From a virus, in IMG/VR virus record IMGVR_UViG_3300003319_000207, positions 11,132-55,104 of that record: a stretch of 43,973 nt of DNA; one strand, 5' to 3'. Position 1 is the stretch's first letter, and each line of letters begins with the position of its first letter. The notes below the pieces were generated by a model. The model did not search any database and was not told the DNA's origin. It saw only the letters and a list, made by a program, of their open reading frames with translations. Of this stretch, positions 11,095-41,699 are shown piece by piece. Made by a program: the position numbers and the translations under genes.

Positions 11095-12098
11095 TATACA
11101 AGTCTCCCAATACGCTGTTTCGACAGTTTGGCACTTCCGTAAACATTCATGTTCACCGTTATCTGGTCATCCGGCTCGTAGTTGCGCTTCTCGTTATTGA
11201 GTTCCCGAATGGCCCGAGCCTCGTGATACAGCGCCTTCTGTTTGCTGGCGCTGTCATCCATCTCAGAGAAACGTATCGACATGGCCATTTCCTTAATGGC
11301 CGGAATGTTGTCGATGAACAGGTAATCCCAGTCGTTAGCGACTGGTATAAATTCCAGCTTGGCAATGGCCATGACCGTTTTCACCGTCGAGCACTGGCAT
11401 GAACTATCGTGCACGTTCAAGCCGCTCATGTAATACCGGTGATACTCGGCTACGGTTTCTGTGGGCTCATACAACCCCAAAGCGAGCTGAATGGTGCTGA
11501 CCGTGTCAACCTGATAAAGTGGAACCCGTCCCACCGTCACATCCTTCTGCACTCCCGTCACCACACTCACATCAAAGTCAGTCTGCACATAAGGATCGGC
11601 CAGCGTCATGTAGAAACCTTCGGTGGTGCCAGTTCGGATCGGGTTGCCATATTGATCTTGGCCGAAAACATGAAGCCGCTTCCCAACGTCTGCCACATCC
11701 GTTATATAGGCTCGAAGCCTCTTATTGGGAGGCTGCACGTCAGAAAACGTCGGATGAAAGCCGCGATCCAGAAACTGCTGGCCTGGGCATCCCCGATCAC
11801 AAGCAGTCCCGCTGATTGGCCCTGGCTCATTGGGCAGAAACTCCCACCACGCATTGCGAATGGGCGTCACATATCCGCACATCGCAATATCGTAAATGGC
11901 CGCCACTGTTCTCGGAAACGTCACACAACCGTTGTTCAGACAAAGCCGTATGCGCTGCCACGAACCTTTCCACTTGCCACGCACGATAAGTCTCTGCATC
12001 ACCTCGTTTATAAGACTCACGAAGGCAGCGCTGTTCTTGCAGATTCCCACCAGCTCGGCGATTCGGGAATCCTTGGCTGTTTTTAAAGTGGCTCTCAT
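11094..12098 (-). CDS. structural protein, probably tail- or connector-associated
   Basis: A 334-residue, Cys- and Trp-containing globular protein. The N-terminal part is helical with SLINEVMQRLIVRGKWKGSW, then a conserved-looking segment WWEFLPNEPGP, a Cys cluster (GTACDRGCPGQ) and a long beta-rich middle, ending in helices with MSIRFSEMDDSASKQKALY. Proteins with the N-terminal motif of repeated modest helices followed by 'RGKWKG' occur beside the nozzle and fibre genes in environmental podoviruses, so a head-tail adaptor or tail-wall role is plausible, but this is inference from position. It is coupled on both sides (ATGA and TAATG). Confidence 0.5.
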   Translation of the reverse strand: MRATLKTAKDSRIAELVGICKNSAAFVSLINEVMQRLIVRGKWKGSWQRIRLCLNNGCVTFPRTVAAIYDIAMCGYVTPIRNAWWEFLPNEPGPISGTACDRGCPGQQFLDRGFHPTFSDVQPPNKRLRAYITDVADVGKRLHVFGQDQYGNPIRTGTTEGFYMTLADPYVQTDFDVSVVTGVQKDVTVGRVPLYQVDTVSTIQLALGLYEPTETVAEYHRYYMSGLNVHDSSCQCSTVKTVMAIAKLEFIPVANDWDYLFIDNIPAIKEMAMSIRFSEMDDSASKQKALYHEARAIRELNNEKRNYEPDDQITVNMNVYGSAKLSKQRIGRLV

Positions 12099-12616
12099 CC
12101 GACGATGTACTTTCGGGTAGTGCGTTTGATAAAATTCACGCCTCTCACCTTCTGGGCGCCGGTCATGTTCACCTTTGCCGCATCCACACCCACAGCAGCA
12201 ACCGTTCCGGCCCCAATGGGAATCTTGTCGGCGAAGTCGGTGTCGATAGTCCAGAATGGCCCGGTCGTATTCGTTACAGCCCCAGCCGATCCACCGTCGA
12301 AAGTGTCAAGGGTTGCTTGATCTGAAGTCCACAACCATCTTACTGCATTCGGTCCAGGGGGAACCGGATAAGGCCGAACCCACGCACCGGAAGAAAACGC
12401 ATAAGAACCCTCCGGCGATCCGTCTGAGTTGAGCTTGAGCCAGGGCTTGTCCTGATTGTCAACCGTCGGAGTCGATGTCCCGACGTTCCAAGATGTGAAC
12501 TCTCCGCTGATTTGAGCCGAAGCAAGTTCGAAGAAACTGTTGGCCCGTTCCTGTTCGTTAGCGAAACAAACTCCTTCAGGAAGGATGGGCGGGGTGAGTT
12601 GGACAGGAGTACTCAT
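12095..12616 (-). CDS. tail collar/fibre-like protein
   Basis: A 173-residue protein of the phage tail-fibre or collar type. It contains DKPWLKLNSDGSPEGSYAF followed by SGAWVRPYPVPPGP, a strand RWLWTSDQATLDTFDGG, then a Gly-rich segment with FWTIDTDFADKIPIGAG. The W-x-K-...-DG-...-Y.F.SG.WV pattern and the DGG...P.G pattern are common to collar-domain proteins that form the trimeric distal part of fibres. It lies in the tail operon 57 bases after a larger repeat protein and overlaps the next gene by ATGA. It could bind a receptor or be a minor collar component. Confidence 0.55.
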   Translation of the reverse strand: MSTPVQLTPPILPEGVCFANEQERANSFFELASAQISGEFTSWNVGTSTPTVDNQDKPWLKLNSDGSPEGSYAFSSGAWVRPYPVPPGPNAVRWLWTSDQATLDTFDGGSAGAVTNTTGPFWTIDTDFADKIPIGAGTVAAVGVDAAKVNMTGAQKVRGVNFIKRTTRKYIVG

Positions 12617-12672
12617 TGTTTCTGGCGTTCACCCCGCCATTGTTTAAGGTTTAGTTCACCGGGGTTTCATTT

Positions 12673-13971
12673 TCAAGGCGGAAATAGCGGGGTCAGAGTT
12701 GCGGTGAAACTTGAGGAACAACCGGTTGGCGGAAATCCCACCGGCTGAGAGATCAAGGCAATCTGCAAATTTCGGGATGTTGGTGGAACTCCGAAAGCAT
12801 TCAACGCGATATTTACACTCAAAGTTCCAGACTTGGTAGAGCAGGCTGCTGGCGCCGGGAAAGGCGCTCCCACAACTTGATCGCTTGCAAGCGCAACGGC
12901 ATTGTCGATGTCGAATATCTCAATGACAGTATTGGACGCCCCCGGAGGTCCGAACACTCCATCCAAAGCTGTGATCGTGTAGGGAACCGAGATGTTTACC
13001 GTGTAGGCATTACAGCTATTCTGGAGCGTAAACTGAAGTTCAACATCCTGGGGCTGAGCTACTGAACCACTGGCAGACCCACCGGACCCTGATCCGGTCC
13101 CATCTCCAGTCTTTGTCCAGACCAGATCATTCACCGGATGGTCTGTGCAGCTTGTGCAACCCGCCGCCACCTGAGCCGCGCAATCCGCATCAGCCAAAGC
13201 ATTCGCTGCTGCCTTCGAAACATTCGAGCTGTAGGTATGAGCTGGCACCGAGAATGGCCCTCCTGTGGCCGGGGGTGTGCAGTCGCAGGTCGTCATGTCG
13301 TTCCAGTAAAGACAGACACTCGGAATCTGAGCCTGAGCGTAAGCCAGAGCTTTTGCATCCGCGTCTTCCTGAGAGATGTAACTGATGTCATGTCCGGCAG
13401 GCACCGTGATCGGCCCCCCTTCGGCTCCAGTCGGGCAGCTGAGCGTCACTTCCGCGTTGATCCAGTGACAATCCGCGAACAACTCAAAGAACACGAGCGC
13501 AGCTCCAACCGCTTTTGCGTTGGCATCCTCAACACTTATCGTCGAAGAGAACAGTCCTGCATCAACATGGAACACTCCGTTTATCAACCACGGAAGCATC
13601 GTCACATCACTCACCCTTCCCTGTGTGCAGGTGAGATCCATCGCTTTGTTGAAATACAACTTAGGTTTCTCAATGAAGTAGGTGAATGTGTTCGTGTTCT
13701 GGGCGTACTGCTGAACCTTCTGATCGAGCAAAGTCTGGTGGTTGTCGTTCTCCTCCTTCGTCGTGGGCGTAAAGGTGACGAGACCGGCACCCACTGTCAC
13801 AGTGATTCCGGGGATCGGATTTCCGAACTGATCTTCACAGGAGAATCCTGGGGGACAAGGAATGAACACGGACTGCTCGGCGTTGGTGTAGGTTGGCCAC
13901 GCATTGAGCGAGTAATCGAATAACTCGTGCGGAGAATCACAGCACTCAAGGCGGTTTGGGCAATCACTCAT
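12673..13971 (-). CDS. Cys-rich repeat protein, DUF5977-like (fibre or adhesin)
   Basis: A 432-residue protein with Cys throughout. At least three related repeats can be seen: FSSTISVEDANAKAVGAAL, then DISYISQEDADAKALAYAQ, then TYSSNVSKAAANALADADC. Each follows a segment ending in (T/S)VPAG/H-type strands and CP or CDC motifs. This pattern resembles the DUF5977 repeat of bacterial and phage surface proteins; the family assignment is by eye. The C-terminal third is a beta-sandwich-like domain. It sits just after the nozzle-like gene, overlapping it by eight bases, so a tail-attached adhesin is a reasonable guess. Disulphide formation would have to occur outside the cytoplasm. Confidence 0.5.
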   Translation of the reverse strand: MSDCPNRLECCDSPHELFDYSLNAWPTYTNAEQSVFIPCPPGFSCEDQFGNPIPGITVTVGAGLVTFTPTTKEENDNHQTLLDQKVQQYAQNTNTFTYFIEKPKLYFNKAMDLTCTQGRVSDVTMLPWLINGVFHVDAGLFSSTISVEDANAKAVGAALVFFELFADCHWINAEVTLSCPTGAEGGPITVPAGHDISYISQEDADAKALAYAQAQIPSVCLYWNDMTTCDCTPPATGGPFSVPAHTYSSNVSKAAANALADADCAAQVAAGCTSCTDHPVNDLVWTKTGDGTGSGSGGSASGSVAQPQDVELQFTLQNSCNAYTVNISVPYTITALDGVFGPPGASNTVIEIFDIDNAVALASDQVVGAPFPAPAACSTKSGTLSVNIALNAFGVPPTSRNLQIALISQPVGFPPTGCSSSFTATLTPLFPP

Positions 13972-16808: not shown

Positions 16809-17176
16809 GCGGCAGTCTCAAATCTCTGTTTGGCCTGCTTGAGTTTGTTGAGCTTGGTGTTAGGCACCACAGGCGTTAACTTGAAGTGCTTCAGCTCATA
16901 GAGCTTGTTGCCTTCGCGCACTCCAACATAACTCGTAAAGGTGCGGCACCGGAACACGCCGCGAATGACGGCATTCACTTCCGATTTGATTTCAGAGGCC
17001 ACAAGGAACTCCACGCTCTCAAGCCCAAGTGCCATCCTAGCCGATTCAATGTCACCACCGTGAAATACCACAGACCTGGCATCATCCAGGCTGTTAATGC
17101 GAATTTCCAGAGAAGGGCTTCGTTCTCTACCGATGGGGGTGTCGTTGGCGGCCATACTTGCCATTGTATAGCGCAT
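16805..17176 (-). CDS. small hypothetical virion-operon protein
   Basis: A 123-residue protein opening the leftward tail operon. A second in-frame ATG at 17155 would give 116 residues beginning MAANDTPIG and lies just after a promoter-like element (TTGCCA-N17-TATACA on this strand), so the true start may be there. The body is beta/alpha with SLEIRINSLDDARSVVFHGG and a basic, Lys-rich C-terminus (LNKLKQAKQRFE). No family is recognised. It diverges from the terminase large-subunit gene with almost no intergenic space. Confidence 0.6.
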   Translation of the reverse strand: MRYTMASMAANDTPIGRERSPSLEIRINSLDDARSVVFHGGDIESARMALGLESVEFLVASEIKSEVNAVIRGVFRCRTFTSYVGVREGNKLYELKHFKLTPVVPNTKLNKLKQAKQRFETAA

Positions 17177-17193
17177 GCTCTAGGATGTGGCAA
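17158..17193. promoter_or_regulatory. overlapping divergent promoter-like elements between tail and terminase operons
   Basis: On the plus strand TTGCCA (17158-17163) and TAGGAT (17181-17186) are 17 bases apart. On the minus strand TTGCCA (17193-17188) and TATACA (17170-17165) are also 17 bases apart. The two -35-like hexamers form an inverted repeat around a shared core. Predicted start points fall at or next to potential start codons (GTG at 17194 for terminase, ATG at 17155 for the leftward gene), so transcripts could be leaderless. The hexamers are not perfect, so this remains a prediction. Confidence 0.4.
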
Positions 17194-18975
17194 GTGTCAA
17201 CTCTTGGCATAGAAAAGTATGGCGCTGTGTGGCGAAAGGGGGAGAGCGACGTTCAGATTGAGAAGGCGGCGATTCGCCGGGGTGGCCGGTGGATCGGCAA
17301 AAAAGGACAGCAATGCGGCGCGGGTCTTTATGAGCATTACCTGAACCTCCAGAAGCTTTACTGGCCCAACAAAAAGTGGCACCGGTGGAATGAGCTTCTC
17401 TTGCGGACTTTCGTAGAGAACCGAATCATCGGGATTCTGGGACCGGCCTCGTCGGGCAAAACCCGCGAAGCCTCCGACTACGCCCTCACCGTCTACAGCA
17501 TCTGGCCCAACGAAACAACCGTGATGGTGAGCAGCACCGAAATGCGCTCTCTGGAGCTGCGCATTTGGGGTGAAACCAAAAAGAGCTGGGCAGCCGCCAA
17601 GGCCCGGTTTCCTGATTTCCCAGGCTGTGCCATCGGAAGCCGATTGATGATTACCACCGACGCAAAAGACGACTTGGTGCGTGACTTCAGGAACGGCATC
17701 GTTGGCATTCCGTGCGTGAGCGGCGGCAACTTCGTGGGCATCTCCAAGTATGTCGGCTTGAAGAACACCCGCGTTATTCTCGTCGCTGACGAAGCTCAGT
17801 TCCTTCCACGAGGCTTCCTGGATAGCATCTCCAACCTCAACAAAAATGCCGGTTTCCAGTGCATTGGCCTGGGAAACCCCAAGGATCGCACTGACGCACT
17901 TGGCCTTATCTGTGAACCAGCCGACTCCATTGGTGGCTGGGATGGGCGGGATCAGACAGAGAAAACCACCACATGGCCCACACGCTTTGAAGGTGGCGTT
18001 GCCGTCCAGCTTGTTGGCACAGACAGCCCAAACTTTGATGTGCCGGAAGACGCCCCGGTCCCATTCCCATTCCTGATTACACGCAAAGCCATTGCCAGCG
18101 ACATCCAGTTTTACGGCCGAGAGAGTTTGCAGTTTACGATGATGAACCTCGGCATGATGCCAGCGGATAGCACATCGCGCCGGGTCATCACGCGCAGTCT
18201 GTGCCAGCAGTTTCATGCAATGGATGAGGTCATCTGGGGCAGCACCACACCAAAAAAGCTGGCTGGGTTGGACGCAGCCTATGGCTCCACCGGCGGCGAC
18301 CGTTGTATTCTCACGTTTTTGTCAATGGCTTATGACAGCCGGGGCGTTCAAACCCTGGCTTTCGAGGAACCCCCCATGGTGGTGCCGGTAAGCAGCAAAC
18401 TCGGCCTTTCACCAGAAGACCAGATTGCCGAATTCGTGATGAAAGCCTGCATAACACGCAGCATGGGGCCAGAAGACGTCTTCTACGACTCAACAGGCCG
18501 TGGGACACTGGGGACGGCTTTTGCCAGGTTATGGAGCCCTCATGTGAACCCAGTAGAGTTCGGTGGCAAGCCCAGCAGCCGGCCCGTCAGCCTGGACATC
18601 CGCAAGCTTTGCAAGGACTACTACAGCAAGTTCGTTACTGAACTGTGGTATAGCGTGCGCTATGCCATCGAGAGCGGCCAGATACGCGGCCTTCCCGAGG
18701 CCGTAATGCTGGAAGGCTGCATGCGCGAATGGACAATCGTAGCCGGCAACAAAATCGAAGTGGAGTCCAAGGACAAAACCAAGCTTCGAATGGGCCGCTC
18801 ACCGGACCTTTTTGACTCGTTTGTAGTGGCCGTCGAAGGAGCCCGGCGCCGCGGTTTTCAGATCCAGCGCCTCGCAGGTCTGTCTCGACAAAACAACGAA
18901 AACTGGCTAAACCAGCTTCGTGACAAACAGCGTTTGATTCGCAAAGCCAAAGAGTTAAACTATGCCGCTTCTTAA
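17185..18975 (+). CDS. terL: terminase large subunit
   Basis: The DNA-packaging motor and nuclease, 596 residues from the ATG at 17185. Walker A is GPASSGKT near residue 86, Walker B is ILVADEAQ near 198, and three acidic residues of the RNase H-like nuclease fit Asp near 363 (GLDAAYG), 435 (FYDSTGRG) and 544 (FDSFVVA). Length is usual for the family. It cuts concatemers and pumps DNA through the portal encoded 1.4 kb downstream. A GTG at 17194 is an alternative start. The small subunit candidate lies 20 kb away at 38407, an unusual separation. The 3' end overlaps the next gene by 14 bases. Confidence 0.95.
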   Translation: MWQVSTLGIEKYGAVWRKGESDVQIEKAAIRRGGRWIGKKGQQCGAGLYEHYLNLQKLYWPNKKWHRWNELLLRTFVENRIIGILGPASSGKTREASDYALTVYSIWPNETTVMVSSTEMRSLELRIWGETKKSWAAAKARFPDFPGCAIGSRLMITTDAKDDLVRDFRNGIVGIPCVSGGNFVGISKYVGLKNTRVILVADEAQFLPRGFLDSISNLNKNAGFQCIGLGNPKDRTDALGLICEPADSIGGWDGRDQTEKTTTWPTRFEGGVAVQLVGTDSPNFDVPEDAPVPFPFLITRKAIASDIQFYGRESLQFTMMNLGMMPADSTSRRVITRSLCQQFHAMDEVIWGSTTPKKLAGLDAAYGSTGGDRCILTFLSMAYDSRGVQTLAFEEPPMVVPVSSKLGLSPEDQIAEFVMKACITRSMGPEDVFYDSTGRGTLGTAFARLWSPHVNPVEFGGKPSSRPVSLDIRKLCKDYYSKFVTELWYSVRYAIESGQIRGLPEAVMLEGCMREWTIVAGNKIEVESKDKTKLRMGRSPDLFDSFVVAVEGARRRGFQIQRLAGLSRQNNENWLNQLRDKQRLIRKAKELNYAAS

Positions 18976-19645: not shown

Positions 19646-20346
19646 GAGTAGTGATTCCATACTGCAAGCGGGACATCATGCTTTGTTCAGATTTGCTGTC
19701 GTGGATAAAGGAGTTGGGTGGGTGTGAAGAGTTCGATGCCACACTGGCGTCACCATTCGTTGGCTTTGAAGTGTTGCAAGGAATGCGTCAAAAAGCCTGC
19801 CAGTGTTTTCGTGGCGTTGACGTCATCGTGAAAACCGGAGCCCCGCAGGAAGAGCCTTGGCCGCTGGGCGCAAACCGGCTTTTTGAAGCAACCATCGCAA
19901 AGATTCATGAGCCTTTTCTGTGGCTGGAGCCGGACGCAGTTCCACTCAAGGAGGGATGGCTTCACAGGATTGCATCAGTCTATTCAGTCTGTGAGCACTC
20001 CTTCATGGGCAGCATCAATGAGAAGGATGGTGTCCGACACCTGAGTGGCGTGGCTGTTTATCCAGACGATGCCCGAAACTACTACGTCAAAACATTGCCT
20101 TCTGCCGAGGCTTTTGACATGGTGGGTCAGGAAATCATCCTGAATGACACTTATCACACCAAGCTCATATACAACTTCTGGGGACGTCACGGACTGCCCC
20201 CCACCTTCAAAGAGACTCTGGAGAATGGCGACCCTGAGAATACGCTCACACTGGCGTCAATCCCCAAGGATGCTGTGCTCTTTCACCGGTCAAAGGACGG
20301 CACATTACTGAAACTGCTGCGCGAGCAGCGAAAGGTCGCAGCATGA
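19642..20346 (+). CDS. glycosyltransferase-like protein (GT-A type candidate)
   Basis: A 234-residue protein. The ATG at 19642 overlaps the previous stop as ATGA. The N-terminus has the beta-alpha start MRVVIPYCKRDIMLCSDL typical of nucleotide-sugar-binding folds, and FLWLEPDAVPLKEGWL near residue 93 resembles the region around the metal-binding DxD motif of GT-A enzymes, here as EPDA. It probably transfers a sugar, but donor and acceptor are unknown. It is tightly coupled to the portal gene by ATGA, so it is co-expressed with virion assembly. This is the first of three glycosyltransferase-like genes in the operon. Confidence 0.55.
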   Translation: MRVVIPYCKRDIMLCSDLLSWIKELGGCEEFDATLASPFVGFEVLQGMRQKACQCFRGVDVIVKTGAPQEEPWPLGANRLFEATIAKIHEPFLWLEPDAVPLKEGWLHRIASVYSVCEHSFMGSINEKDGVRHLSGVAVYPDDARNYYVKTLPSAEAFDMVGQEIILNDTYHTKLIYNFWGRHGLPPTFKETLENGDPENTLTLASIPKDAVLFHRSKDGTLLKLLREQRKVAA

Positions 20347-22631
20347 AAAAGTTCGAAAAAGCCAGCCAGGTTGCCAACGTCGTTTACTACTTAAAGGCTG
20401 CGGATGTGCCGCGCAGCGCCAATCGCGCCCTCATAAATGACCTCTTTAATGGTGAACCGCCTTATAGTGAACGCGAGGCCGAGGAAAACCACTGCAACAC
20501 TAACGTCAACTTTTTGGATGCAGCCCGCATCGCTCACGACGCCCGAAACACCTTCACCAACGCGTTTCTGAAGCCGGGTAACTTTTTCACGGTATCGCTG
20601 GACAGCGGCCCTCCAAGCAAGCGCTCCACATGGAGCCGCATCATCACCAAAAACATCAATCGGCTGATGAAGCAATCCAAGCCGTATATGGATACGCTGA
20701 AGGCTGAGTTTGCTCAAACGGTGCTTCATGGTGTCGGACCAAGTGCCTGGGAAGACAAATGGAAATGGTGCCCTGATCCTGTGGCAATGGATGATTTTCT
20801 AGTGCCTTCCCGCACCAAGGTTTCGCTGGAGAACCTGGACTACTTTGCCATCTTCAAGCAGTTCACGCCGGCCAAACTTTACAAGCTAACGCACGGCAAA
20901 AAGCTGGACCCTGGATGGAACATGAAGTTGGTTAACCAGCTGCTGAAGAAGTATGCCAGTGAGTATCTGACCAACACCTATAACGACATCAACATCACAC
21001 CGGAAAAACTCTCAGAGACCTTAAAGAGTGATCTCACATGGTTTGACAACGAAGCCATCCCAACAATCAACTGCTGGGATTTCTACTACCGGAATGATGA
21101 CACGGAAGCTGAAGAGTGGCACCGGAAGATGATCGTTGATTATACGACAGAAGGTGAAATGGGTCAGGAGTTCATCTATGAGCCCAAGGCACCATTTGCA
21201 ACTAACTTGAATCACATTTTGCATGTGATGTTCGGCGATGGGTCAAGTGTGGCGCCGTTCCGGTATCACTCAGTGCGCGGCCTTGGATGGCTTTTGTATG
21301 CTGTGTGTCACCTCCAGAACCGGCTTCGCTGCAAAGTGAATGACAAGGCTTTTGAGGACTTGATGATGTGGTTCCGTGTGAGTTCGCCGGAGGACCGGGA
21401 GCGGCTGGACAAGATTGACCTGCATCACCTGGGCGTCATTCCTGACGGTCTCCAGATTTTGCTTAACACGGAGCGCTACAATCCTAACCCGACTTTCATT
21501 GAGCAGGTGCTGGCTCAGAACAACCAGACCATGAGCGAATCCAGCGCTCAATTTCGGCCGGAGCTGGATAATGGCACTCAAAAGGAGATGACAGCCGTTG
21601 AGGTGATGGCCCGGATGAACAATGCCAATGCGCTTGTAGGGTCCATGCTGACGATGTCCTATAACAACCAGGGCTTTCAGTATGACGAGATTTGCCGGCG
21701 CTTCTGTCAGAGGCCAACGCTGGATAAGGACGCCAAGGAGTTTCAGAGGAAGTGTCGGGAGGAAGGCGTGCCCGAGGAATACTTGGACTCTGAAAGGTGG
21801 ATCATTGAGCCAGAGCGGGTGCTTGGCAGTGGCAATAAAACGCTGGAGATCGCACAGGCGAAGGAGCTGATGGCCGCTCGGCCTCTCTACGATCCTGAGC
21901 CTCAGCGCCAGATTCTTCACATTTTCACCGAAGCAATGACCGATGATCCTCAGCTGGCAGCTCAGCTAGTGCCAATAGACAAGAAGCCGGTGAGCGATGC
22001 AGTGCATGATGCTCAGCTGGCAGCCGGCACTCTGATGATGGGAATGCCAGTGGCCATCAAGACCGGCATGAATCATCAGGAATACATCGAGGCATTGCTG
22101 GGCTCCATGGGAGCCGTCATCAAGCGGCTCCAGCAACAGGAACAGCAGCAAGTGCCGCTGGACTTCAAAGACCTGATGGGACTTCAAAACATAGCCGCTC
22201 ACATCGAGCAGCACATTCAGATATTGGCGCAAGACAAGGCCGAGAAGCAGAACGTTAAACGATATAGTGATCTGCTTGGCAACTTCATGAACATTGTGAA
22301 GGCGTTCATGCAGCATTTTGTGGAGGCTCAGCAGCAGGCGCAGCAGAACGGCTCAAACCTGCCGCCAGAAGCCAAGGCGAAGATTCAGGCGACGATGCTG
22401 ACGGCCCAAACCAAGGCCAAGCTGGACGAAGCCAAGACGCGCCAGAAGCTGGTTCACAAGGATGTGGCCTTCAAGCAGCGCCAAGCACAGGATGCTCAAA
22501 AGCATCGGATGGCCTTGGGCGAGCAGGCACAACGCGTTCAAGCGGATATTGCCGCCAAGGATGTTCAGACAGCCGCAGACATCAAACTAAAGCAGGCTGC
22601 TGTGGTAAGTGAGCCAGAAGGACAGGAATAA
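20343..22631 (+). CDS. portal (head-tail connector) protein
   Basis: A 762-residue protein, long but within the range for podovirus portals. The core follows the portal pattern: an N-terminal helical start with NVNFLDAARIAHDARNTF, then a stem and wing domain, and ETMS-type segments such as QNNQTMSESSAQFRPELD near residue 400. The C-terminal ~150 residues are Gln/Lys/Ala-rich coiled coil (QHFVEAQQQAQQNG, DAQKHRMALGEQAQR), consistent with a barrel extending into the capsid. It forms the dodecameric ring through which terminase packages DNA. It overlaps the gene before it by ATGA. Confidence 0.85.
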   Translation: MKKFEKASQVANVVYYLKAADVPRSANRALINDLFNGEPPYSEREAEENHCNTNVNFLDAARIAHDARNTFTNAFLKPGNFFTVSLDSGPPSKRSTWSRIITKNINRLMKQSKPYMDTLKAEFAQTVLHGVGPSAWEDKWKWCPDPVAMDDFLVPSRTKVSLENLDYFAIFKQFTPAKLYKLTHGKKLDPGWNMKLVNQLLKKYASEYLTNTYNDINITPEKLSETLKSDLTWFDNEAIPTINCWDFYYRNDDTEAEEWHRKMIVDYTTEGEMGQEFIYEPKAPFATNLNHILHVMFGDGSSVAPFRYHSVRGLGWLLYAVCHLQNRLRCKVNDKAFEDLMMWFRVSSPEDRERLDKIDLHHLGVIPDGLQILLNTERYNPNPTFIEQVLAQNNQTMSESSAQFRPELDNGTQKEMTAVEVMARMNNANALVGSMLTMSYNNQGFQYDEICRRFCQRPTLDKDAKEFQRKCREEGVPEEYLDSERWIIEPERVLGSGNKTLEIAQAKELMAARPLYDPEPQRQILHIFTEAMTDDPQLAAQLVPIDKKPVSDAVHDAQLAAGTLMMGMPVAIKTGMNHQEYIEALLGSMGAVIKRLQQQEQQQVPLDFKDLMGLQNIAAHIEQHIQILAQDKAEKQNVKRYSDLLGNFMNIVKAFMQHFVEAQQQAQQNGSNLPPEAKAKIQATMLTAQTKAKLDEAKTRQKLVHKDVAFKQRQAQDAQKHRMALGEQAQRVQADIAAKDVQTAADIKLKQAAVVSEPEGQE

Positions 22632-22946: not shown

Positions 22947-24167
22947 ATGCCACCAGCAGCAGCAGAACCGCCCGCAGCGCCCCCAGCGCCGGCCACATCT
23001 CCAACTCCAGCGCCCGCGGCAGCTCCGCCAACGCCTCCAGCCAAGCCGACCATGTCGAGTGGCCAGCCTGTGCCTGAGTCATCGGCGTCATTTGATGCGA
23101 TGGCAGAGCTTGAGTCATTGGCGAATCCCAAGCCGGTTGAAAAGCCTGCTGAAAAACCGGCCGCAACGGCTCCCCCAGCTCCAAAACAGCCGGAAGCTGC
23201 CGCCAAACCACCGGAAACACCCGCCAAACCAGCTGAACCACCTACACCCCCGGAACCGGTGGTGGCTGGAACCGCCAAAGAACTTCGCGCGGCTTATGAA
23301 AACACGAAAAAGGAGCTGGCGGCCATCAAAGCGGAGCTGGAGAAGGCCAAAAAGCCTGTGGAAGACCCTGAAAAGAAGACTTTCGCAGAGCAGCTGGAGG
23401 CCGAGCGCAAGCAGCGTGAGTCGCTGGAGGCTGAGTTGAGGGCCACCAACTGGGAACGCAGCCAGGATTACAAGGACAAGTACGTTAAGCCTCTGGAAAG
23501 GGCTTTTGACTCGGCCTACGGAGAGATTAAGAGCCTTCAAGTAAAGACGCCAGACGGCGCTACCCGGCCTGGCACTGTGGAGGACTTCAATATGCTGGTG
23601 CAACTGCCCCTGGCTGACGCCAGCAACATGTCCAAGCTGCTTTTTGGCGATGCTGCCGGGGATGTGATGGCAATGCGGCGTCAGATCATTGATCTTAACC
23701 GGGCACGGCAGGCCGATCTGGAGGACTTCAAGACCAAAAGCGCCAGTGCAGCCAAGGAAAAGGAGGCCCAGCGGCTTCTAGAGAGGGAGCGCAGGCAATC
23801 GGTCTGGAACACTACGATCAAAACCATGCAGGACAAGTTCCCGGAACTGTTTGCCCCGGTGGAAGGAGATGCCGAGGGCAACGAATTGCTCGAAAAAGGA
23901 ACCAAGCTGGCCGATCTGGTTTTCAGTGGTGTTGAGATGGCGCCGGAAAAGCAGGCTGAGCTTCATGCGATGGTACGCAATAAGGCAGCGGCGTTTGACC
24001 GGATGGTTCGGATGACGCAGCGCCAGTCAGAACAGATCAAGAGCCTCGAAAAGGAGCTGGAAGCGTTCAAGGCGTCGAGCCCTGGGAATGGAAATGCCGG
24101 TGGCGGAACGCCGGCCGTCAAAGAAAAGACCTGGGAAGATGAGTTGAACGATCTGACAAGCCGATGA
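22947..24167 (+). CDS. scaffolding-like protein
   Basis: A 406-residue protein with strongly biased composition. The first ~100 residues are Pro/Ala-rich and disordered (PPAAAEPPAAPPAPATSPTP). A long charged coiled coil follows (TKKELAAIKAELEKAKKPVE, ETKSASAAKEKEAQRLLERE), and the C-terminus has VRMTQRQSEQIKSLEKELEA followed by a Gly-rich and acidic tail. This architecture is typical of capsid scaffolding proteins, which direct coat assembly and leave before DNA packaging. The position after portal supports it, although the coat protein lies on the other strand 10 kb away. An AAAGGA ribosome binding site precedes the start. Confidence 0.65.
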   Translation: MPPAAAEPPAAPPAPATSPTPAPAAAPPTPPAKPTMSSGQPVPESSASFDAMAELESLANPKPVEKPAEKPAATAPPAPKQPEAAAKPPETPAKPAEPPTPPEPVVAGTAKELRAAYENTKKELAAIKAELEKAKKPVEDPEKKTFAEQLEAERKQRESLEAELRATNWERSQDYKDKYVKPLERAFDSAYGEIKSLQVKTPDGATRPGTVEDFNMLVQLPLADASNMSKLLFGDAAGDVMAMRRQIIDLNRARQADLEDFKTKSASAAKEKEAQRLLERERRQSVWNTTIKTMQDKFPELFAPVEGDAEGNELLEKGTKLADLVFSGVEMAPEKQAELHAMVRNKAAAFDRMVRMTQRQSEQIKSLEKELEAFKASSPGNGNAGGGTPAVKEKTWEDELNDLTSR

Positions 24168-33980: not shown

Positions 33981-35510
33981 TCAGGCGCTGGTAACGGTGA
34001 CGTCCACGCTGTTACAGGTGGAGCCGTCGAGGCAGATGCCGGTTGCGCTCGCACTCCAGGTGCCGAGGTGAGGAGCACCATCGGAGCTGTTGAGGTAGTC
34101 GGCCAACAGCTGGTAAGTGGCTTTGCTGCCACTGGCAACATGGCTGACTGGAACGCCATTGCAGGTGATTTCGGAACCGCCCGCGGCTGCGGCGATCTGG
34201 TATGGGCCGGTGATGCCGGTGAGATCGAAGCAGATTTGCGGGTTGGGGCAGACGTCGTTGGCGCTGTTGTAGTCCTGTTCGACGTAGCTCGGCGTCGGGG
34301 CGCAGGGCGGAACGTCCTGGACGCAGGCGATTTCACGCTTGTAGAGGAAGGCGACGGCCCATTCGGGACGGTCGGCCTTGGTCGCGTAGCTGAAATCAGC
34401 GATGAACTTGCCTTTGTTGCGCCGGGTGTTTTCGATGACGCAGCCACTGGCGTCGGCGCCCAGGTTGTCCATGACGAACTGCCATTTGCCGCCGAAGTCG
34501 CGCGCGGCGAAAGGCATCATCGGGTTGATCTGGGTGGTTTCACGCACCAGCGATTTCATTGCCATCCGGTTCCAAATGAAGTCGACCTGGAACTCGGCGT
34601 TGATGTAGGCGTCGTTGACGATGCCTTTGATGCCCTGGGTGGCGGCCACGTTGGTGTAGGGGAATACCCGTTCCAAAGTGACGCCGTCGGCCAGGAGCTG
34701 GTAACGCAAGGGGAAGTCGTCATAGCGGAAACCAAAGTTGCCGATGCCGTTCACGATCCCGTACTTGTAGAGAACGCCACCCTCGACGAAATCCTCGAAG
34801 CGGAAGAGGTTGGTGAGATCGGCATTGCCCTGGATGAGGGTGTAGCCGGTGATTTCGTCGGTGACATATTCGGCGAGCTTGGGCATCCCCGGGACGCGGC
34901 CGAAGTAACCATTGAGCTTCAGCGGTTCAATTTGGCGCTGGAGCATCTGGATAGTCATCTTGGAGGTTGGCAGCGCGTTCGGGACGATCCGGGTGCAATC
35001 GGCATTGGTCGTGAAGGTGAGCGGCGTCATCGAGCTGCCAGCGACGATTTTGGTACCGGCGATTCGCAAGGCTTCAGTGCGCATGCGGTCGCTGATGATG
35101 ATGTTGGTCGCGTCCTTCAGGTTGGAGATGATGCCGGCGAATTGCTCTTTGGCGCGGTCGGCCGACATCACAAGGTCGAAGCAGAAGAGCTGCGTGGCGT
35201 AGGATTTCTGCTGGAGCTTGTAGCTGTCGCGGGTCGAGCCAAAGCCAATGAGTTTTTCGTCGGGATCGCAAGGGGTGCCGATGCAGTTGCCGACGGTCAC
35301 GTCGTTCCAGCAACCAGAGAGGTCGGGGAAGACGCGGTTGATGCGGTCAAAGGTGTGAGAGACGCCGTCGAGGGCCGGGAAAACGCCGGTGGAGACGTGG
35401 CCGATCCAGCCGTCGGTGGGCGTGATGTCTTTGATGATTTCGCTATCGAGATGTTCGGAGCGCCGGATGAGGAAGTCGGTGAAACTTTTACAAGTCAAGG
35501 AACCAGCCAT
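33981..35510 (-). CDS. major capsid protein candidate
   Basis: A 509-residue protein. The start ATG at 35510 is fixed by AAAGG six bases upstream; a TTG four codons earlier is less likely. The fold pattern (SFTDFLIRRSEHLDSEIIKD at the start, long beta/alpha body, LFRFEDFVEGGVLYKYGIVN, PEWAVAFLYKREI) fits a HK97-type coat, and length and operon position (first virion gene, followed by small head proteins) agree. From about residue 400 on a Cys-containing extension (CPNPQICFDLTGITGPYQIA, then CLDGSTCNS) looks like an added surface domain. The gene has a ~170-bp leader with hairpins. Confidence 0.65.
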   Translation of the reverse strand: MAGSLTCKSFTDFLIRRSEHLDSEIIKDITPTDGWIGHVSTGVFPALDGVSHTFDRINRVFPDLSGCWNDVTVGNCIGTPCDPDEKLIGFGSTRDSYKLQQKSYATQLFCFDLVMSADRAKEQFAGIISNLKDATNIIISDRMRTEALRIAGTKIVAGSSMTPLTFTTNADCTRIVPNALPTSKMTIQMLQRQIEPLKLNGYFGRVPGMPKLAEYVTDEITGYTLIQGNADLTNLFRFEDFVEGGVLYKYGIVNGIGNFGFRYDDFPLRYQLLADGVTLERVFPYTNVAATQGIKGIVNDAYINAEFQVDFIWNRMAMKSLVRETTQINPMMPFAARDFGGKWQFVMDNLGADASGCVIENTRRNKGKFIADFSYATKADRPEWAVAFLYKREIACVQDVPPCAPTPSYVEQDYNSANDVCPNPQICFDLTGITGPYQIAAAAGGSEITCNGVPVSHVASGSKATYQLLADYLNSSDGAPHLGTWSASATGICLDGSTCNSVDVTVTSA

Positions 35511-35684
35511 AGAGCCTTTCAAAAAGTGTGAGCATTCGCTCGTTTTCTTTGGGAGAAAACCGCTCCCAGCGTTGCAGAATCCACTGCATCGCGGAGGCGA
35601 CCTTGAAAGGTTTCCGTGATTTGAGGGTTACCAACCAACCCTCGGGCTGCCTAGCCGTTGTAAGCTGAGGAACAGCGACCTCGG
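35511..35684 (-). promoter_or_regulatory. major capsid leader with hairpins
   Basis: This 174-bp stretch between the HNH gene and the capsid gene holds no gene. On the transcribed strand it contains a perfect 7-bp hairpin at 35643-35623 (arms GAGGGTT/AACCCTC, 7-base loop), a shorter GAGG/CCTC hairpin near 35665-35685, and a GGGAG/CTCCC hairpin near 35550-35566. AAAGG lies just before the capsid start. The hairpins may steady the abundant capsid mRNA or end upstream transcripts; no U-run follows any of them. Confidence 0.4.
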
Positions 35685-37057: not shown

Positions 37058-37102
37058 GGAGTAAAGACCTACCACGTATTGTGGAATGTGTAAAGAAAGT
37101 TG

Positions 37103-37130
37103 TTGACAACCCTATGCAGGGATGTAGGGT
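37103..37130 (+). promoter_or_regulatory. sigma70-like promoter upstream of a terminator hairpin
   Basis: TTGACA (37103-37108) and TAGGGT (37125-37130) are 16 bases apart, with AGTTG preceding the -35 as in another promoter at 37676. A transcript starting near 37137 would meet the hairpin at 37165-37195 after only ~30 bases, so it would be very short. The -10 matches at three of six positions including the critical A and T. Confidence 0.4.
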
Positions 37131-37164
37131 CGCACCGTCTCATAGGTGTCTCTGGTCTCTCCTA

Positions 37165-37205
37165 CCACCCAGCTCGATCTCTCCGGGCTGGGTGGCTTCG
37201 TCTTC
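37165..37205 (+). terminator. strong hairpin, terminator-like
   Basis: A perfect 9-bp stem, CCACCCAGC (37165-37173) with GCTGGGTGG (37187-37195), encloses a 13-base loop and is followed by CTTCGTCTT, which is only moderately U-rich. It could end a short transcript from the promoter at 37103 or act as an mRNA boundary for the divergent operons. Confidence 0.5.
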
Positions 37206-37209
37206 AGGG

Positions 37210-37500
37210 GCTTCAATGTGTTAATACGTGTTATCAAGCACTTACATAAGGTCATAAGTGCCATTTACTACATAAGTATCTAAGTATAAGAGTATAACGC
37301 GATAACGCTACACTAGTGCTACACATGACCCTACCTACCGGCCTAGACATATACATTTTCTTTACAGACTTCACCAACACAGTGCGTGACTACAGTGAAA
37401 ATTAGGGTGTGTCTCTGAAATTGTACATATTTACTAACTATACTATATACTAACATATATAAACGTATAATCGCGTAGAACGATAACAGAAGTAGAAGAA
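37210..37500. other. AT-rich intergenic stretch without genes
   Basis: No gene is seen. The stretch is much more AT-rich than its surroundings and contains repeated CATAAG-type words (three near 37235-37285), the palindrome CACTAGTG, and a TATA-rich portion near 37430-37475 (ACTATACTATATACTAACATATATAA split by other bases). Such easily melted DNA beside palindromic repeats is a usual feature of replication origins; this is inference. Confidence 0.4.
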
Positions 37501-37544
37501 GTACGTACAGCTTGTTAACCGGTTAACCGTATAACCGGTTAACT
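37501..37544. repeat. palindromic repeat cluster (copy A)
   Basis: GTACGTAC (37501-37508) is followed after five bases by the perfect 14-bp palindrome GTTAACCGGTTAAC (37514-37527) and, three bases on, by a second, slightly imperfect copy at 37530-37543 whose centre TAACCGGTTA is perfect. The GTACGTAC plus palindrome order recurs at 38968-38990. Likely binding sites for a dimeric protein: an operator or replication initiator sites. Confidence 0.7.
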
Positions 37545-37680
37545 GGATGGTAGCTGTGATCTGTGCACTGTGTAGATTGTAAACATTTAGAGGCCGGGGA
37601 GTCATGGCACTTGTAGCATTAGTGTAGTGTGAAGGTTAAAACGTAGGTTTAACACAATTATGCAAAGGTAAAAATAGTTG

Positions 37681-37710
37681 TTGACAGGAACCGGTATAAA
37701 TCGGCATCAT
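37681..37710 (+). promoter_or_regulatory. promoter-like element at the start of the 37709 gene
   Basis: TTGACA (37681-37686) is preceded by AGTTG and lies 18 bases before CATCAT (37705-37710), which matches the -10 consensus at four of six positions. The start point would fall at about 37718, which is itself an in-frame ATG, so the transcript may be leaderless. Confidence 0.4.
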
Positions 37711-38406: not shown

Positions 38407-38907
38407 ATGGAAGTCAAATACACGCAGCAGCAGAAGGAGGCTTGGCGCAATGCGTATGTGACGGGCGAGCGGTCGCTCCGGGATATTTCCCGGGATGGCA
38501 TCAAGCTGTCGTATCTGCATAGGATTTCGTTCAGGGAGGGGTGGGGACGGCTCAGGCAGGAGTATAAGATGAGCCGCCAAGAGATAATGATTCACGGCCT
38601 GTCGCTCGAGAAGATGGCCGAGGCGATGGCGCCGGGCCTTGTTAATGGCATCACCCAGAACATCACCAAGAATGCCCGGGAGTATAGGTCGCTCGGGTCG
38701 TCGCTGCTGGCGTCGGCCGTCAAGTTCTCGGTGGATTGCCGGGACGATAAGCTATCGGCGACTGAGCGGGCCAAGCTCGCCGAAGCTGCCTGCCGGTTAG
38801 CTGAAGCTGCGCGCGAGTGCTGCGGCATCCCAGAGACCGCTCGTGCCACCCCTCGTCCTCCTCCTAAGCCAGTTACCGACATCCCCGAGGCCATCCCTCT
38901 GGAGTAA
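38407..38907 (+). CDS. terminase small subunit-like protein
   Basis: A 166-residue protein. The N-terminal helix-turn-helix (KEAWRNAYVTGERSLRDISR, then GIKLSYLHRISFREGWGRLR) matches phage terminase small subunits, in which such a domain recognises pac or cos DNA. A helical oligomerisation-type region follows (ERAKLAEAACRLAEAARECC) and then a Pro-rich tail (TPRPPPKPVTDIPE). If this is the small subunit, it is encoded 20 kb from the large one and next to a repeat-rich region that could hold the packaging site. A transcription regulator with the same helix-turn-helix is the main alternative. Confidence 0.55.
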   Translation: MEVKYTQQQKEAWRNAYVTGERSLRDISRDGIKLSYLHRISFREGWGRLRQEYKMSRQEIMIHGLSLEKMAEAMAPGLVNGITQNITKNAREYRSLGSSLLASAVKFSVDCRDDKLSATERAKLAEAACRLAEAARECCGIPETARATPRPPPKPVTDIPEAIPLE

Positions 38908-38917
38908 GAGTCTTCAC

Positions 38918-38941
38918 CGGTTCTACGGTTCTACGGTTCAC
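38918..38941. repeat. 8-bp iterons, set 1 (CGGTTCTA)
   Basis: Three consecutive 8-bp units: CGGTTCTA (38918-38925), CGGTTCTA (38926-38933) and CGGTTCAC (38934-38941). They start eleven bases after the stop of the terminase-small-subunit-like gene and are followed 27 bp on by GTACGTAC and the palindrome. Tandem 8-mers of this kind suit the binding of an initiator or of the small terminase. Confidence 0.7.
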
Positions 38942-38967
38942 CATAAGGCCATCCCCCACCACAGGTA

Positions 38968-39014
38968 GTACGTACGGTTAACCGGTTAACGCGTTCACGC
39001 GTTCACGCGTTCAC
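38968..39014. repeat. palindromic repeat cluster (copy B) with 8-bp iterons, set 2 (GCGTTCAC)
   Basis: GTACGTAC (38968-38975), one base, then the perfect palindrome GTTAACCGGTTAAC (38977-38990), then three tandem 8-bp units GCGTTCAC (38991-39014). The palindrome and its GTACGTAC companion repeat the arrangement at 37501-37527, 1.46 kb away. This concentration of short repeats in 100 bp of non-coding DNA looks like a protein-binding nucleation site. Confidence 0.75.
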
Positions 39015-39086
39015 ATGTCAACCAGTTCACTAAATGTGGGGTGGTGAGCGGCGTAAAGCGTTGGGGCTTAGTCGCTTAGGTCGGAG

Positions 39087-39102
39087 TGTTCCACGTGGAA
39101 CA
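39087..39102. promoter_or_regulatory. chromosomal parS-like site
   Basis: TGTTCCACGTGGAACA is a perfect 16-bp palindrome, identical in type to the bacterial chromosomal ParB-binding site parS (B. subtilis consensus TGTTTCACGTGAAACA; the CC/GG variant occurs in many Gram-negatives). It lies in non-coding DNA and is followed by nine A residues. No parA or parB gene is seen in the window, so host ParB would be the binder. Confidence 0.65.
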
Positions 39103-39204
39103 AAAAAAAATGGAAGAGCGGTATACAACCAACCACCCCACCTCGTTTTCGCCCCCACCCTGGCACCCCGCCGGGACGGTTCCGCGGTGAAAAAGAGATT
39201 CCTT

Positions 39205-39326
39205 AGTAAGTTGCGCAAGATGCTTACCTTTCGCACAATATTTGAGACAGCCTGTCTCTAGATACCCGTGATGCTTTGCATCCGAAAGGTGAGACAGCCT
39301 GACCCGAAGTAACTTACGCAAGTTGC
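39205..39326. repeat. cluster of direct and inverted repeats
   Basis: AGTAAGTTGCGCAAGATGC (39205-39223) recurs with three changes as AGTAACTTACGCAAGTTGC (39308-39326). Between them TGAGACAGCCTG occurs twice (39243-39254 and 39290-39301), the first within the inverted repeat GAGACAGCCTGTCTC (39244-39258). GATGC/GCATC forms a small hairpin at 39270-39282, and CTTACCTTTCG (39223-39233) is nearly complementary to CGAAAGGTGAG (39283-39293). The whole could fold as a cruciform or RNA structure, or be a set of binding sites. Confidence 0.6.
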
Positions 39327-39365
39327 TCAGGATTCAACCCCGGCGGAAGGCGGCACCATTCGTAT

Positions 39366-39405
39366 GATGCGTGTAATGGTCAGCATTACCGGCGCGTCTC
39401 GCATC
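39366..39405. repeat. nested hairpin
   Basis: GATGCG (39366-39371) can pair with CGCATC near 39399-39404, enclosing the perfect hairpin GTAATG/CATTAC (39373-39378 with 39384-39389). It lies in the non-coding region after the repeat cluster. Purpose unknown. Confidence 0.4.
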
Positions 39406-39505
39406 ACTTTAGGACCGCGATCCAGCGGAGATTTCCCATGACCCAGCCAGCCCAGGAGAGCTAAGCGCGCGTCAGGTCACACCAGGCCAGCATCAAACGG
39501 CCCAT

Positions 39506-39541
39506 CGCGCACACACGCACGCACGCGCACGCGCGCGCATG
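39506..39541. repeat. alternating purine-pyrimidine tract (Z-DNA-prone)
   Basis: Thirty-six bases of strict pyrimidine-purine alternation, nearly all CG and CA steps, ending in a run of CG steps. Such tracts flip to Z-DNA under negative supercoiling. It lies 36 bp upstream of the best promoter in the window (39577). Confidence 0.7.
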
Positions 39542-39576
39542 AGAGAACGGTCCAAGGTGGGGTTAAAAAAAAGCTC

Positions 39577-39604
39577 TTGACACTATCCTACGCTATGCTA
39601 TAGT
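39577..39604 (+). promoter_or_regulatory. strong sigma70-like promoter
   Basis: A perfect -35 TTGACA (39577-39582), a 16-bp spacer and TATAGT (39599-39604, five of six matches). It is preceded by a run of A residues (39565-39572) that may act as an UP element. Start would be near 39611, giving a ~65-base leader with a CAGCC/GGCTG hairpin before the gene at 39676. Confidence 0.7.
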
Positions 39605-39675
39605 TTGCGCATCAGCCATTAAACCGGCTGACCCGTGGCAATTAAGTCGCGCGGATTGTAGAGAGTAAAAACCCT

Positions 39676-40059
39676 ATGAAATCAGGCATACCTCGCGCTT
39701 TTGTTGAAGCGCAACTCAACTCGGACCCTTCACTCAAGGCACTCGCCCCGGAAGCGTTTGCTACCGAAATAAATAACCGTTATCGGCGGCAGCAGCAGAT
39801 TCTCAAGGAGCAGTATGCAAGCTCCACTGAGCCGGTGACATTCAAAGCCCAAAACAACCTTCGGCTGTCGGACGGCACAGTAACGCTTGTCGCAAGCAAG
39901 CGCGTTGTGGCGAATGCCGCGCAGATCGACGCGAGCATCGCCGCGCAGAAGGAGCGCACCGCAAAGTGGATAGGCAAGGCTGTGGAACTTCGCGCTAGCC
40001 GCGCGGAAAGCCCCGCCGTGAAGCCTGAACCCATTCCTGCCGCTCCTGCCACGAAGTAG
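39676..40059 (+). CDS. hypothetical early protein
   Basis: A 127-residue protein driven by the best promoter of the window. It begins MKSGIPRAFVEAQLNSDPSL, is basic and helical with NNRYRRQQQILKEQY, has a beta segment (LRLSDGTVTLVASKRVV) and ends in an Ala/Glu/Pro tail (SPAVKPEPIPAAPATK). No family is recognised. A strong promoter and a hairpin directly after the stop indicate a separate, highly expressed early unit, for example a host-takeover or regulatory protein. Confidence 0.6.
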   Translation: MKSGIPRAFVEAQLNSDPSLKALAPEAFATEINNRYRRQQQILKEQYASSTEPVTFKAQNNLRLSDGTVTLVASKRVVANAAQIDASIAAQKERTAKWIGKAVELRASRAESPAVKPEPIPAAPATK

Positions 40060-40060
40060 T

Positions 40061-40102
40061 CTCTCCATTGCGTCACAGAATGCCACTGTGACGCACAGAG
40101 AG
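40061..40102 (+). terminator. long hairpin after the 39676 gene
   Basis: A perfect 9-bp stem GCGTCACAG (40070-40078) with CTGTGACGC (40086-40094) and a 7-base loop, extended by CTCTC (40061-40065) with GAGAG (40098-40102). It begins one base after the gene's stop. Only a short, mixed T-containing tail follows, so it may pause or process the transcript rather than end it fully. Confidence 0.5.
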
Positions 40103-40664
40103 GCTATTTAGTCTCTGACGTTGTTCTTTGTCATAACCCTCCGTCTCAAACCGGAGGTGTAAATCGGTAGAAAGTCAAAGCCTGTAGTAGAGCTTGCAAA
40201 CAGTCGTCGCGTGAAAAGTCGTTTCCTTTCGGCGTGAACCGCCGGAGCATGGAGCCACGGGAACCGGACAAAGCGTAGTAGGCATTGCCAAAACTTTGTG
40301 CACACAGTTTCCCCTTCAAATCGAGTAGCGCGGGGACAAGGTGGCCGCTCTAGGTTAAGACTGACAAGTCATTCTCCAAAAAGCGCGCTTCATGCGCTTA
40401 GACTCGTTGCGGCACGTTGCCGTAATGCTCCAAGCCCCGTCAAGCGCTGGTATTGAATTGCCAACTTGTAGGAGAGTTAAACGCTACTGAAACGATTGCA
40501 CGCGCACCTTTGTGCCGAGTGCGAAAGACCGGTCAAACGGTCAACGCATGAAGTGTAGGGTGAATTTGCCAAAACCACGCGTGCTAGTGGGCAAGGTAAC
40601 CCCACAAAGCGGACCCCTCGCCAGAAGCTTGAGCCGATACAGAAGTGCTGGGTCTCCTCGACAA

Positions 40665-40998
40665 ATGCGACACACTCTTGGTGTGTCCACGATGAGGCCG
40701 AAACTTTCCGCCCAAGGTATGACGGCGTGACAAGTGGGGCCGCGCAGTATGAGAATGCGCCATGCGCCGATCAGGACCATGCGACACACACGACAAGTGT
40801 CGACAGTCCCGGGCATGCCGCTGGAACTCATGCGACAAACACGACACACGCGAAGTGTCACTATAAGGCGCCTCTACCAGGGTGCCGACGCTTTCGATTT
40901 TCGAGACGCAACGTGTGCCCTACGTGTTTGGGAAATTCCGAGAGCGCCCCGCGTGACAGGCGGGGTGTTCCTTTCGACACATTCACATGTGGAGTGTG
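40665..40998. repeat. array of ATGCGACA / GACAC-GTGTC hairpins
   Basis: Related units begin ATGCGACA near 40665, 40780 and 40830. Each forms a hairpin: GACACAC/GTGTGTC (40669-40687), CGACAC/GTGTCG (40782-40802) and GACAC/GTGTC (40843-40859). A weaker relative is at 40976-40991 (CACAT/ATGTG). The repeated stem sequence suggests binding sites for one protein, in RNA or DNA. Confidence 0.55.
40945..40977 (+). terminator. terminator-like hairpin
   Basis: CGCCCCGC (40945-40952) pairs with GCGGGGTG (40960-40967, one G-U pair) across a 7-base loop, followed by TTCCTTTC. This is the most terminator-like structure of the non-coding region and may mark the 3' end of an RNA encoded there. Confidence 0.45.
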
Positions 40999-41140
40999 CC
41001 GAACGGAACAAGTGGCGGAATAAGACGCGCGTAATTAAGTGTGGCCACTGGTCGTACCCACTTACGCGAGGACTTTGTAACTCCTCGGTGCAGAGTGAAA
41101 CTCTCTGCCTTGTTCCACAAATAACAACGAGAGAAAACCT

Positions 41141-41347
41141 ATGAAACAGTTTTTCAAATGGCAAGCCCAGCGCATTGCGTTTTGGCGTCGTTGTCAAGGC
41201 ATTGTAAATGCCGACACTATTTCGCTGATAGCTGAATTTTGGCGTGACGCTGGCTATTATGAGCGGCTTAGTGCCATTAAACGCAACAACTATCCACGGC
41301 CCACGAGAGATGGGTTGTGGATTTACTCGATAAAGCAAAACCTATGA
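41141..41347 (+). CDS. small basic/aromatic hypothetical protein
   Basis: A 68-residue protein, MKQFFKWQAQRIAFWRRCQG and so on, rich in Phe, Trp and Arg, with GYYERLSAIKRNNYPRPTRD in its second half. A purine-rich GAGAGAAAA precedes the start. It opens the chain of overlapping small genes and ends in an ATGA overlap with the next. No family is recognised. Confidence 0.6.
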   Translation: MKQFFKWQAQRIAFWRRCQGIVNADTISLIAEFWRDAGYYERLSAIKRNNYPRPTRDGLWIYSIKQNL

Positions 41348-41442
41348 TAACACGAAAACGACGGCTGGCCCGGGTGGTGGCACACGCGAACTGGCTCGAG
41401 ATGTTCTACACCGACGGGACGCGCGAACTTCGCTTCTTATGA
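41344..41442 (+). CDS. very small hypothetical protein
   Basis: A 32-residue protein beginning MITRKRRLARVVAHANWLEM and ending GTRELRFL. It is joined to both neighbours by ATGA overlaps, which is the main reason to accept it; it would otherwise leave the only gap in an unbroken chain of coupled genes. Very basic at the N-terminus. No function can be given. Confidence 0.5.
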   Translation: MITRKRRLARVVAHANWLEMFYTDGTRELRFL

Positions 41443-41699
41443 GCAAAATGCCCAAGCTCGACAGCATCCAAGCAATCGAGAAGCACGTGCTGGTGCCATG
41501 GCGCGAACACATCGCCAGTGTGTTTCAGGACCAAGGGGCGCCGCGGGAGGTTGCTGAGGTTACAGCCCAGTCGGTGTGCACGTTTGCGGTGCTCAATAGG
41601 TGCGAGAGCATGACGGTGCTGTGTAGTACTGATGATGGCGCGATGAAGCATGAGTTTCGAGTTGTCGTCATTGCGCCGGCGCCGGGAGGTGAAAAGTGA
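41439..41699 (+). CDS. small hypothetical early protein
   Basis: An 86-residue protein. The N-terminal half is helical (LDSIQAIEKHVLVPWREHIA), the C-terminal half is beta-rich with CESMTVLCSTDDG and EFRVVVIAPAPGG. It overlaps the previous gene by ATGA and the next by GTGA. No family is recognised. Confidence 0.55.
   Translation: MSKMPKLDSIQAIEKHVLVPWREHIASVFQDQGAPREVAEVTAQSVCTFAVLNRCESMTVLCSTDDGAMKHEFRVVVIAPAPGGEK

Follow-up and report, generated by a model that had tools for sequence, protein, structure and literature searches.

A putative large structured noncoding RNA in a phage from an environmental lineage of ~55-kb phages

From its predicted folding energies and its genomic position, we propose that a block on the plus strand of a phage genome (40054 or 40112 to 41134) encodes one lineage-specific structured noncoding RNA of about 1.0-1.1 kb, a reading that we regard as moderately probable. 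Coordinates refer to the window, the whole 43,973-nt stretch that was analysed, which is taken from a viral record of 55,104 bp (positions 11132-55104). The block has no coding signal, contains an excess of hairpins, folds in a strand-specific manner and has ends that are complementary to each other. Its structured part is better described by 40054-41134 than by the interval of the original prediction (40103-41140).

We infer that the block would be transcribed together with P0001 from a promoter at 39577, and that the RNA would fold into several stable domains with its two ends joined by a long-range stem. It would probably be cleaved out of the operon transcript, since no terminator follows the block, and may then work as a separate, single RNA molecule, in analogy to other large ornate phage RNAs. 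Any function of this molecule might depend on its being abundant in infected cells, on oligomerisation or on binding of proteins. A strong upstream promoter and the lack of a terminator between promoter and block speak for one RNA, whereas the absence of a homologue from every set searched and the comparable folding of two coding segments speak against it.

A gene-free block with an excess of hairpins

The gap between P0001 and the next small open reading frame (ORF, starting at 41141) spans 1,081 bp. All ORF candidates in 40060-41140 were negative per codon (-0.01 to -0.26) under a score trained on the phage's own genes; for comparison, the training genes were all positive, undisputed genes reached +0.04 to +0.30 and P0001 scored +0.26. 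None of the block's stop-to-stop frames of at least 20 residues matched the fetched relatives at E<=0.05. The negative scores and the lack of a frame with a relative led us to reject a coding region or decayed gene, and bear out the earlier view of a kilobase without a coherent gene. The accompanying statement that the phage leaves almost no space between genes elsewhere was wrong: 37076-37708 and 38908-39675 are gene-free too, and gaps of 0.4-1.3 kb occur in most relatives.

Perfect stems of at least 6 bp number nine in 40060-41140 (shuffle mean 1.8), and those of at least 5 bp number 18 in the block (shuffle mean 6.8), with none of 200 shuffles containing as many in either case. The hairpin richness noted originally is therefore present, but whether ten or more are counted depends on how long a stem is required to be. 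Among 101 gene-free gaps of at least 400 bp in 39 genomes of the lineage, the block ranks first in hairpin excess; gaps near it show some excess as well. Palindromic loops for dimerisation were considered and found unconvincing (ten palindromes of 8 nt, where about four would be expected).

On the plus strand, which is the strand of the operon, the 1000 nt at 40060-41059 fold with -382.5 kcal/mol (z -7.5, 20 shuffles), compared with -370.6 kcal/mol (z -2.9) on the minus strand; the segment 40141-41140 has a z of -4.4 on the plus strand. The block has the lowest folding score among 35 gaps of at least 550 bp in the first 18 genomes. When the window was scanned in 800-nt segments, 40110-40909 (+) came third of 79, behind two segments that are antisense to the likely capsid gene and score slightly lower, so that minimum free energy does not settle the matter by itself. 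These results bear on the idea that the block is spacer or decayed DNA particular to this lineage, with no function and only incidental structure, which we consider improbable and rank second among the rival explanations. No relative has the block and its flanking genes are also orphans, as such a spacer would predict; however, no gene remnant was found, and neither the fivefold excess of perfect stems nor the strand-specific folding is expected from decay.

Predicted architecture and transcription

The predicted fold comprises a 5′ stem-loop, long-range helices that join the ends, and four internal domains (Table 1). Each of the five pieces tested (stem-loop I and domains II-V) was stabler on the plus than on the minus strand, although the domain boundaries had been chosen from the plus-strand fold. 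Pairing between the ends had a z of -3.8 on the plus and -1.0 on the minus strand, a result matched by 1 of 286 control windows; the raw duplex energy between the ends is ordinary across the window (187/858) and exceptional only when shuffle-corrected.

Table 1 Features of the block and its flanks (window positions), and R1 loci in related phages (positions within the locus named)
Feature	Positions	Strand	Description
Sigma-70-like promoter	39577-39604	+	TTGACA-N16-TATAGT, extended -10 TG; 11/12 consensus bases
P0001, orphan gene	39676-40059	+	127 aa; codon score +0.26
Stem-loop I	40054-40111	+	Outer stem of 12 bp, perfect inner stem of 10 bp; z -7.75 on +, -5.84 on -
Putative large structured RNA	40112-41134	+	Closed by long-range helices (partition function)
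Terminal long-range stem, predicted	40112-40131 x 41117-41134	+	17 bp
Long-range helices continuing the terminal stem, predicted	40166-40175 x 41100-41109; 40190-40214 x 41062-41083 (21 bp)	+	
Domain II	40371-40477	+	Compact three-way fold; z -4.0 on +, -2.3 on -
Domain III	40606-40744	+	GACACAC/GTGTGTC hairpin inside; z -2.0 on +, -1.45 on -
Domain IV	40745-40835	+	Long unbranched arm; z -3.7 on +, -2.85 on -
Domain V	40867-41012	+	Four stacked hairpins including 40947-40965; z -5.5 on +, -2.3 on -
Small ORF	41141-41347	+	68 aa; directly after the block; weak codon score +0.03
R1	L219 9818-9944	+	
R1	L229 12598-12726	-	
R1	L284 1124-1250	-	
R1	L303 2804-2932	-	
R1	L308 3341-3471	-	

An element acting as DNA (an origin, or a region for packaging or protein binding) would also be rich in inverted repeats, such as the three GACAC-GTGTC hairpins of the block, and roughly 1 kb upstream there are both a parS-like palindrome and a conserved noncoding site. 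The spacers between the repeat arms vary, however, and the site conserved across the family is located elsewhere (39112-39207). The strand asymmetry of folding favours RNA over a DNA element. We rank this explanation third of the rivals and consider it very improbable.

Judging from its sequence, the promoter upstream of P0001 is likely to be the start of the transcript holding the block. No relatives of P0001 were detected in Pfam, PHROGs or the phage family, and its stop codon sits within the first helix of the block. At the other end, the Shine-Dalgarno-like GAGAGA of the 41141 ORF (41129-41134) supplies the 3′ strand of the stem that closes the predicted fold. A terminator at 40945-40967 had been suggested as the 3′ end of the RNA; the hairpin itself is real but is not followed by a U-tract, and the predicted structure continues past it to about 41134. 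Across 38900-41500, no terminator-like sites were found, compared with 4.0 expected.

This arrangement is shared by the main rival, a long intercistronic leader between P0001 and the small downstream genes, in which independent hairpins would act as processing sites, stabilisers or translational control and the Shine-Dalgarno stretch of the 41141 ORF would be held in a helix. Both flanks are genes on the same strand with no terminator, the GAGAGA is paired in the predicted fold, and many hairpins form locally and independently of one another. Yet 1 kb is long for a leader, and the ends of the block pair with each other across its whole length, so that we give this explanation a low but appreciable probability.

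Comparison with known large RNAs

To our knowledge, few RNAs of the size of the proposed molecule exist outside ribosomes, introns and GOLLD, ROOL or OLE. GOLLD is an abundant transcript that rises during lysis, and its Rfam covariance model describes a conserved 3′ region; ROOL forms an RNA-only octameric cage. Both are large phage RNAs of unknown function often found near tRNA islands, and GOLLD exceeds 800 nt (PMC12286853). With GOLLD, the block shares a similar size, phage origin, a gene-free setting and, as predicted, a highly structured fold, but it has no Rfam GOLLD match (at gathering or at E<=5) and no tRNA nearby. The resemblance to ROOL likewise lies in a large phage RNA with an intricate fold, predicted in the case of the block, whereas ROOL measures about 570-660 nt and its model (RF03087) does not match the block.

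The covariance-model check suggested originally for GOLLD, ROOL and others returned zero matches when run on the block: with all 4227 Rfam families (cmscan), none reached gathering in the window and none appeared in the block at E<=5, and a known RNA family or intron was rejected on this ground. ROOL searched alone against the block gave nothing at E<=10, a result that is weak by itself because the search controls held no ROOL. The window contains no tRNA or tmRNA. At the DNA level, the block had no homologue in 50,697 phage records, in 50 DNA-polymerase relatives or in 70 family records (50 terminase relatives and 20 further), and single-sequence covariance models of domains II and V recovered only themselves and weak chance matches (E>=0.04) from family sequences.

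The suggestion of a large ornate RNA is thus partly supported: the block is a long noncoding stretch with a strand-biased, multi-domain predicted fold, compact domains and paired ends, but judged by sequence plus structure it is not GOLLD, ROOL or another Rfam family. On this predicted fold, the block resembles large ornate phage RNAs in kind and is a member of no family that could be tested. Even relatives of 40-60% terminase identity offer nothing with which the block can be aligned, suggesting rapid turnover; this would account for the failure of comparative searches to detect RNAs of this kind. More speculatively, and in our view rather unlikely, the block could represent a new class of phage RNAs about 1 kb in length, GOLLD-sized but unrelated in sequence and fold, that form a defined particle or an RNA-protein complex in Verrucomicrobiota cells during infection. 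A new RNA of this size, unrelated to the known ones and in an unstudied phage lineage, would show that phages give rise to large folded RNAs repeatedly, and would provide an independent case for asking what large phage RNAs are for.

The phage lineage and its other noncoding features

Relatives were reached through hand-built pattern alignments of the DNA polymerase (polA) and the terminase, with matches confirmed by tblastn using the real protein; one row of the polA alignment was hand-edited and two short rows of the terminase alignment were written by us as a search device. Single-protein searches with P0001, polA, a VWA protein and the portal were unsuccessful. The terminase pattern yielded 78 viral relatives (26-61% identity), many of ~55 kb, and found nothing in genome contigs. 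The terminase large subunit (17158-18975) matches PHROG 2, whereas the portal (20343-22631), a scaffold-like protein (22947-24167) and the likely capsid (33981-35522) were named by sequence character and synteny, having no PHROG matches. Almost every structural gene in 5293-35522, including portal, likely capsid and tail proteins, is without a PHROG or phage-GenBank match; by its terminase, the phage nevertheless belongs to an environmental lineage of ~55-kb phages with many members. Searches covered whole records, and we read through 39 genomes or fragments of this lineage, the window's own included. Terminase, portal, likely capsid and one tail protein were common to 17 of the 17 relatives compared, and the proteins to the right of ~36.5 kb were shared with none of them.

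A family-wide conserved noncoding site at 39112-39207, a GC-rich stretch followed by the core ACGGT-N(6-12)-AAAAGAGATTCCTT, recurs about once per genome in about 30 related ~55-kb phages. It was found in 24 viral contigs and is a candidate cos/packaging site or replication origin; in several contigs it is close to a contig end. The same site in the same GC-rich context occurs in contigs assigned to bins of Pedosphaera, Akkermansia and a further Verrucomicrobiota MAG, which points to Verrucomicrobiota as hosts; most other matches in that scan look like chance. The true relatives of this phage are roughly 55-kb phages that probably infect Verrucomicrobiota.

Gene-free gaps of five related phages (G080, G092, G111, G112 and G110) contain an RNA of ~130 nt (128 positions), here called R1, whose stems covary (11 compensatory pairs across 4 sequences). 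Like the putative RNA of the block, R1 is structured, noncoding and located in gene-free gaps of this lineage; it differs in its length and in its end, which is a terminator-like hairpin with a U-run. Three scanned R1 loci, L219 and L229 among them, had no Rfam match, and a search of the window for R1 gave no credible match. Two of these phages have roughly 1 kb of alignable noncoding DNA in common (G080 49448-50470, L219; G092 11553-12879, L229), with 59% identity over 560 + 229 nt directly before the conserved site, and this stretch is possibly a larger RNA containing R1.

Immediately upstream of the conserved site in the window, a perfect parS-like palindrome, TGTTCCACGTGGAACA, is present in single copy (39087-39102), and a ParB-like protein is encoded in the same record (L002, 7285-8202). 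Operator-like GTTAACCGGTTAAC repeats occur at 37514-37543 and 38977-39032, both in gene-free stretches, and those at 38977-39032 run on as 8-bp iteron-like units.
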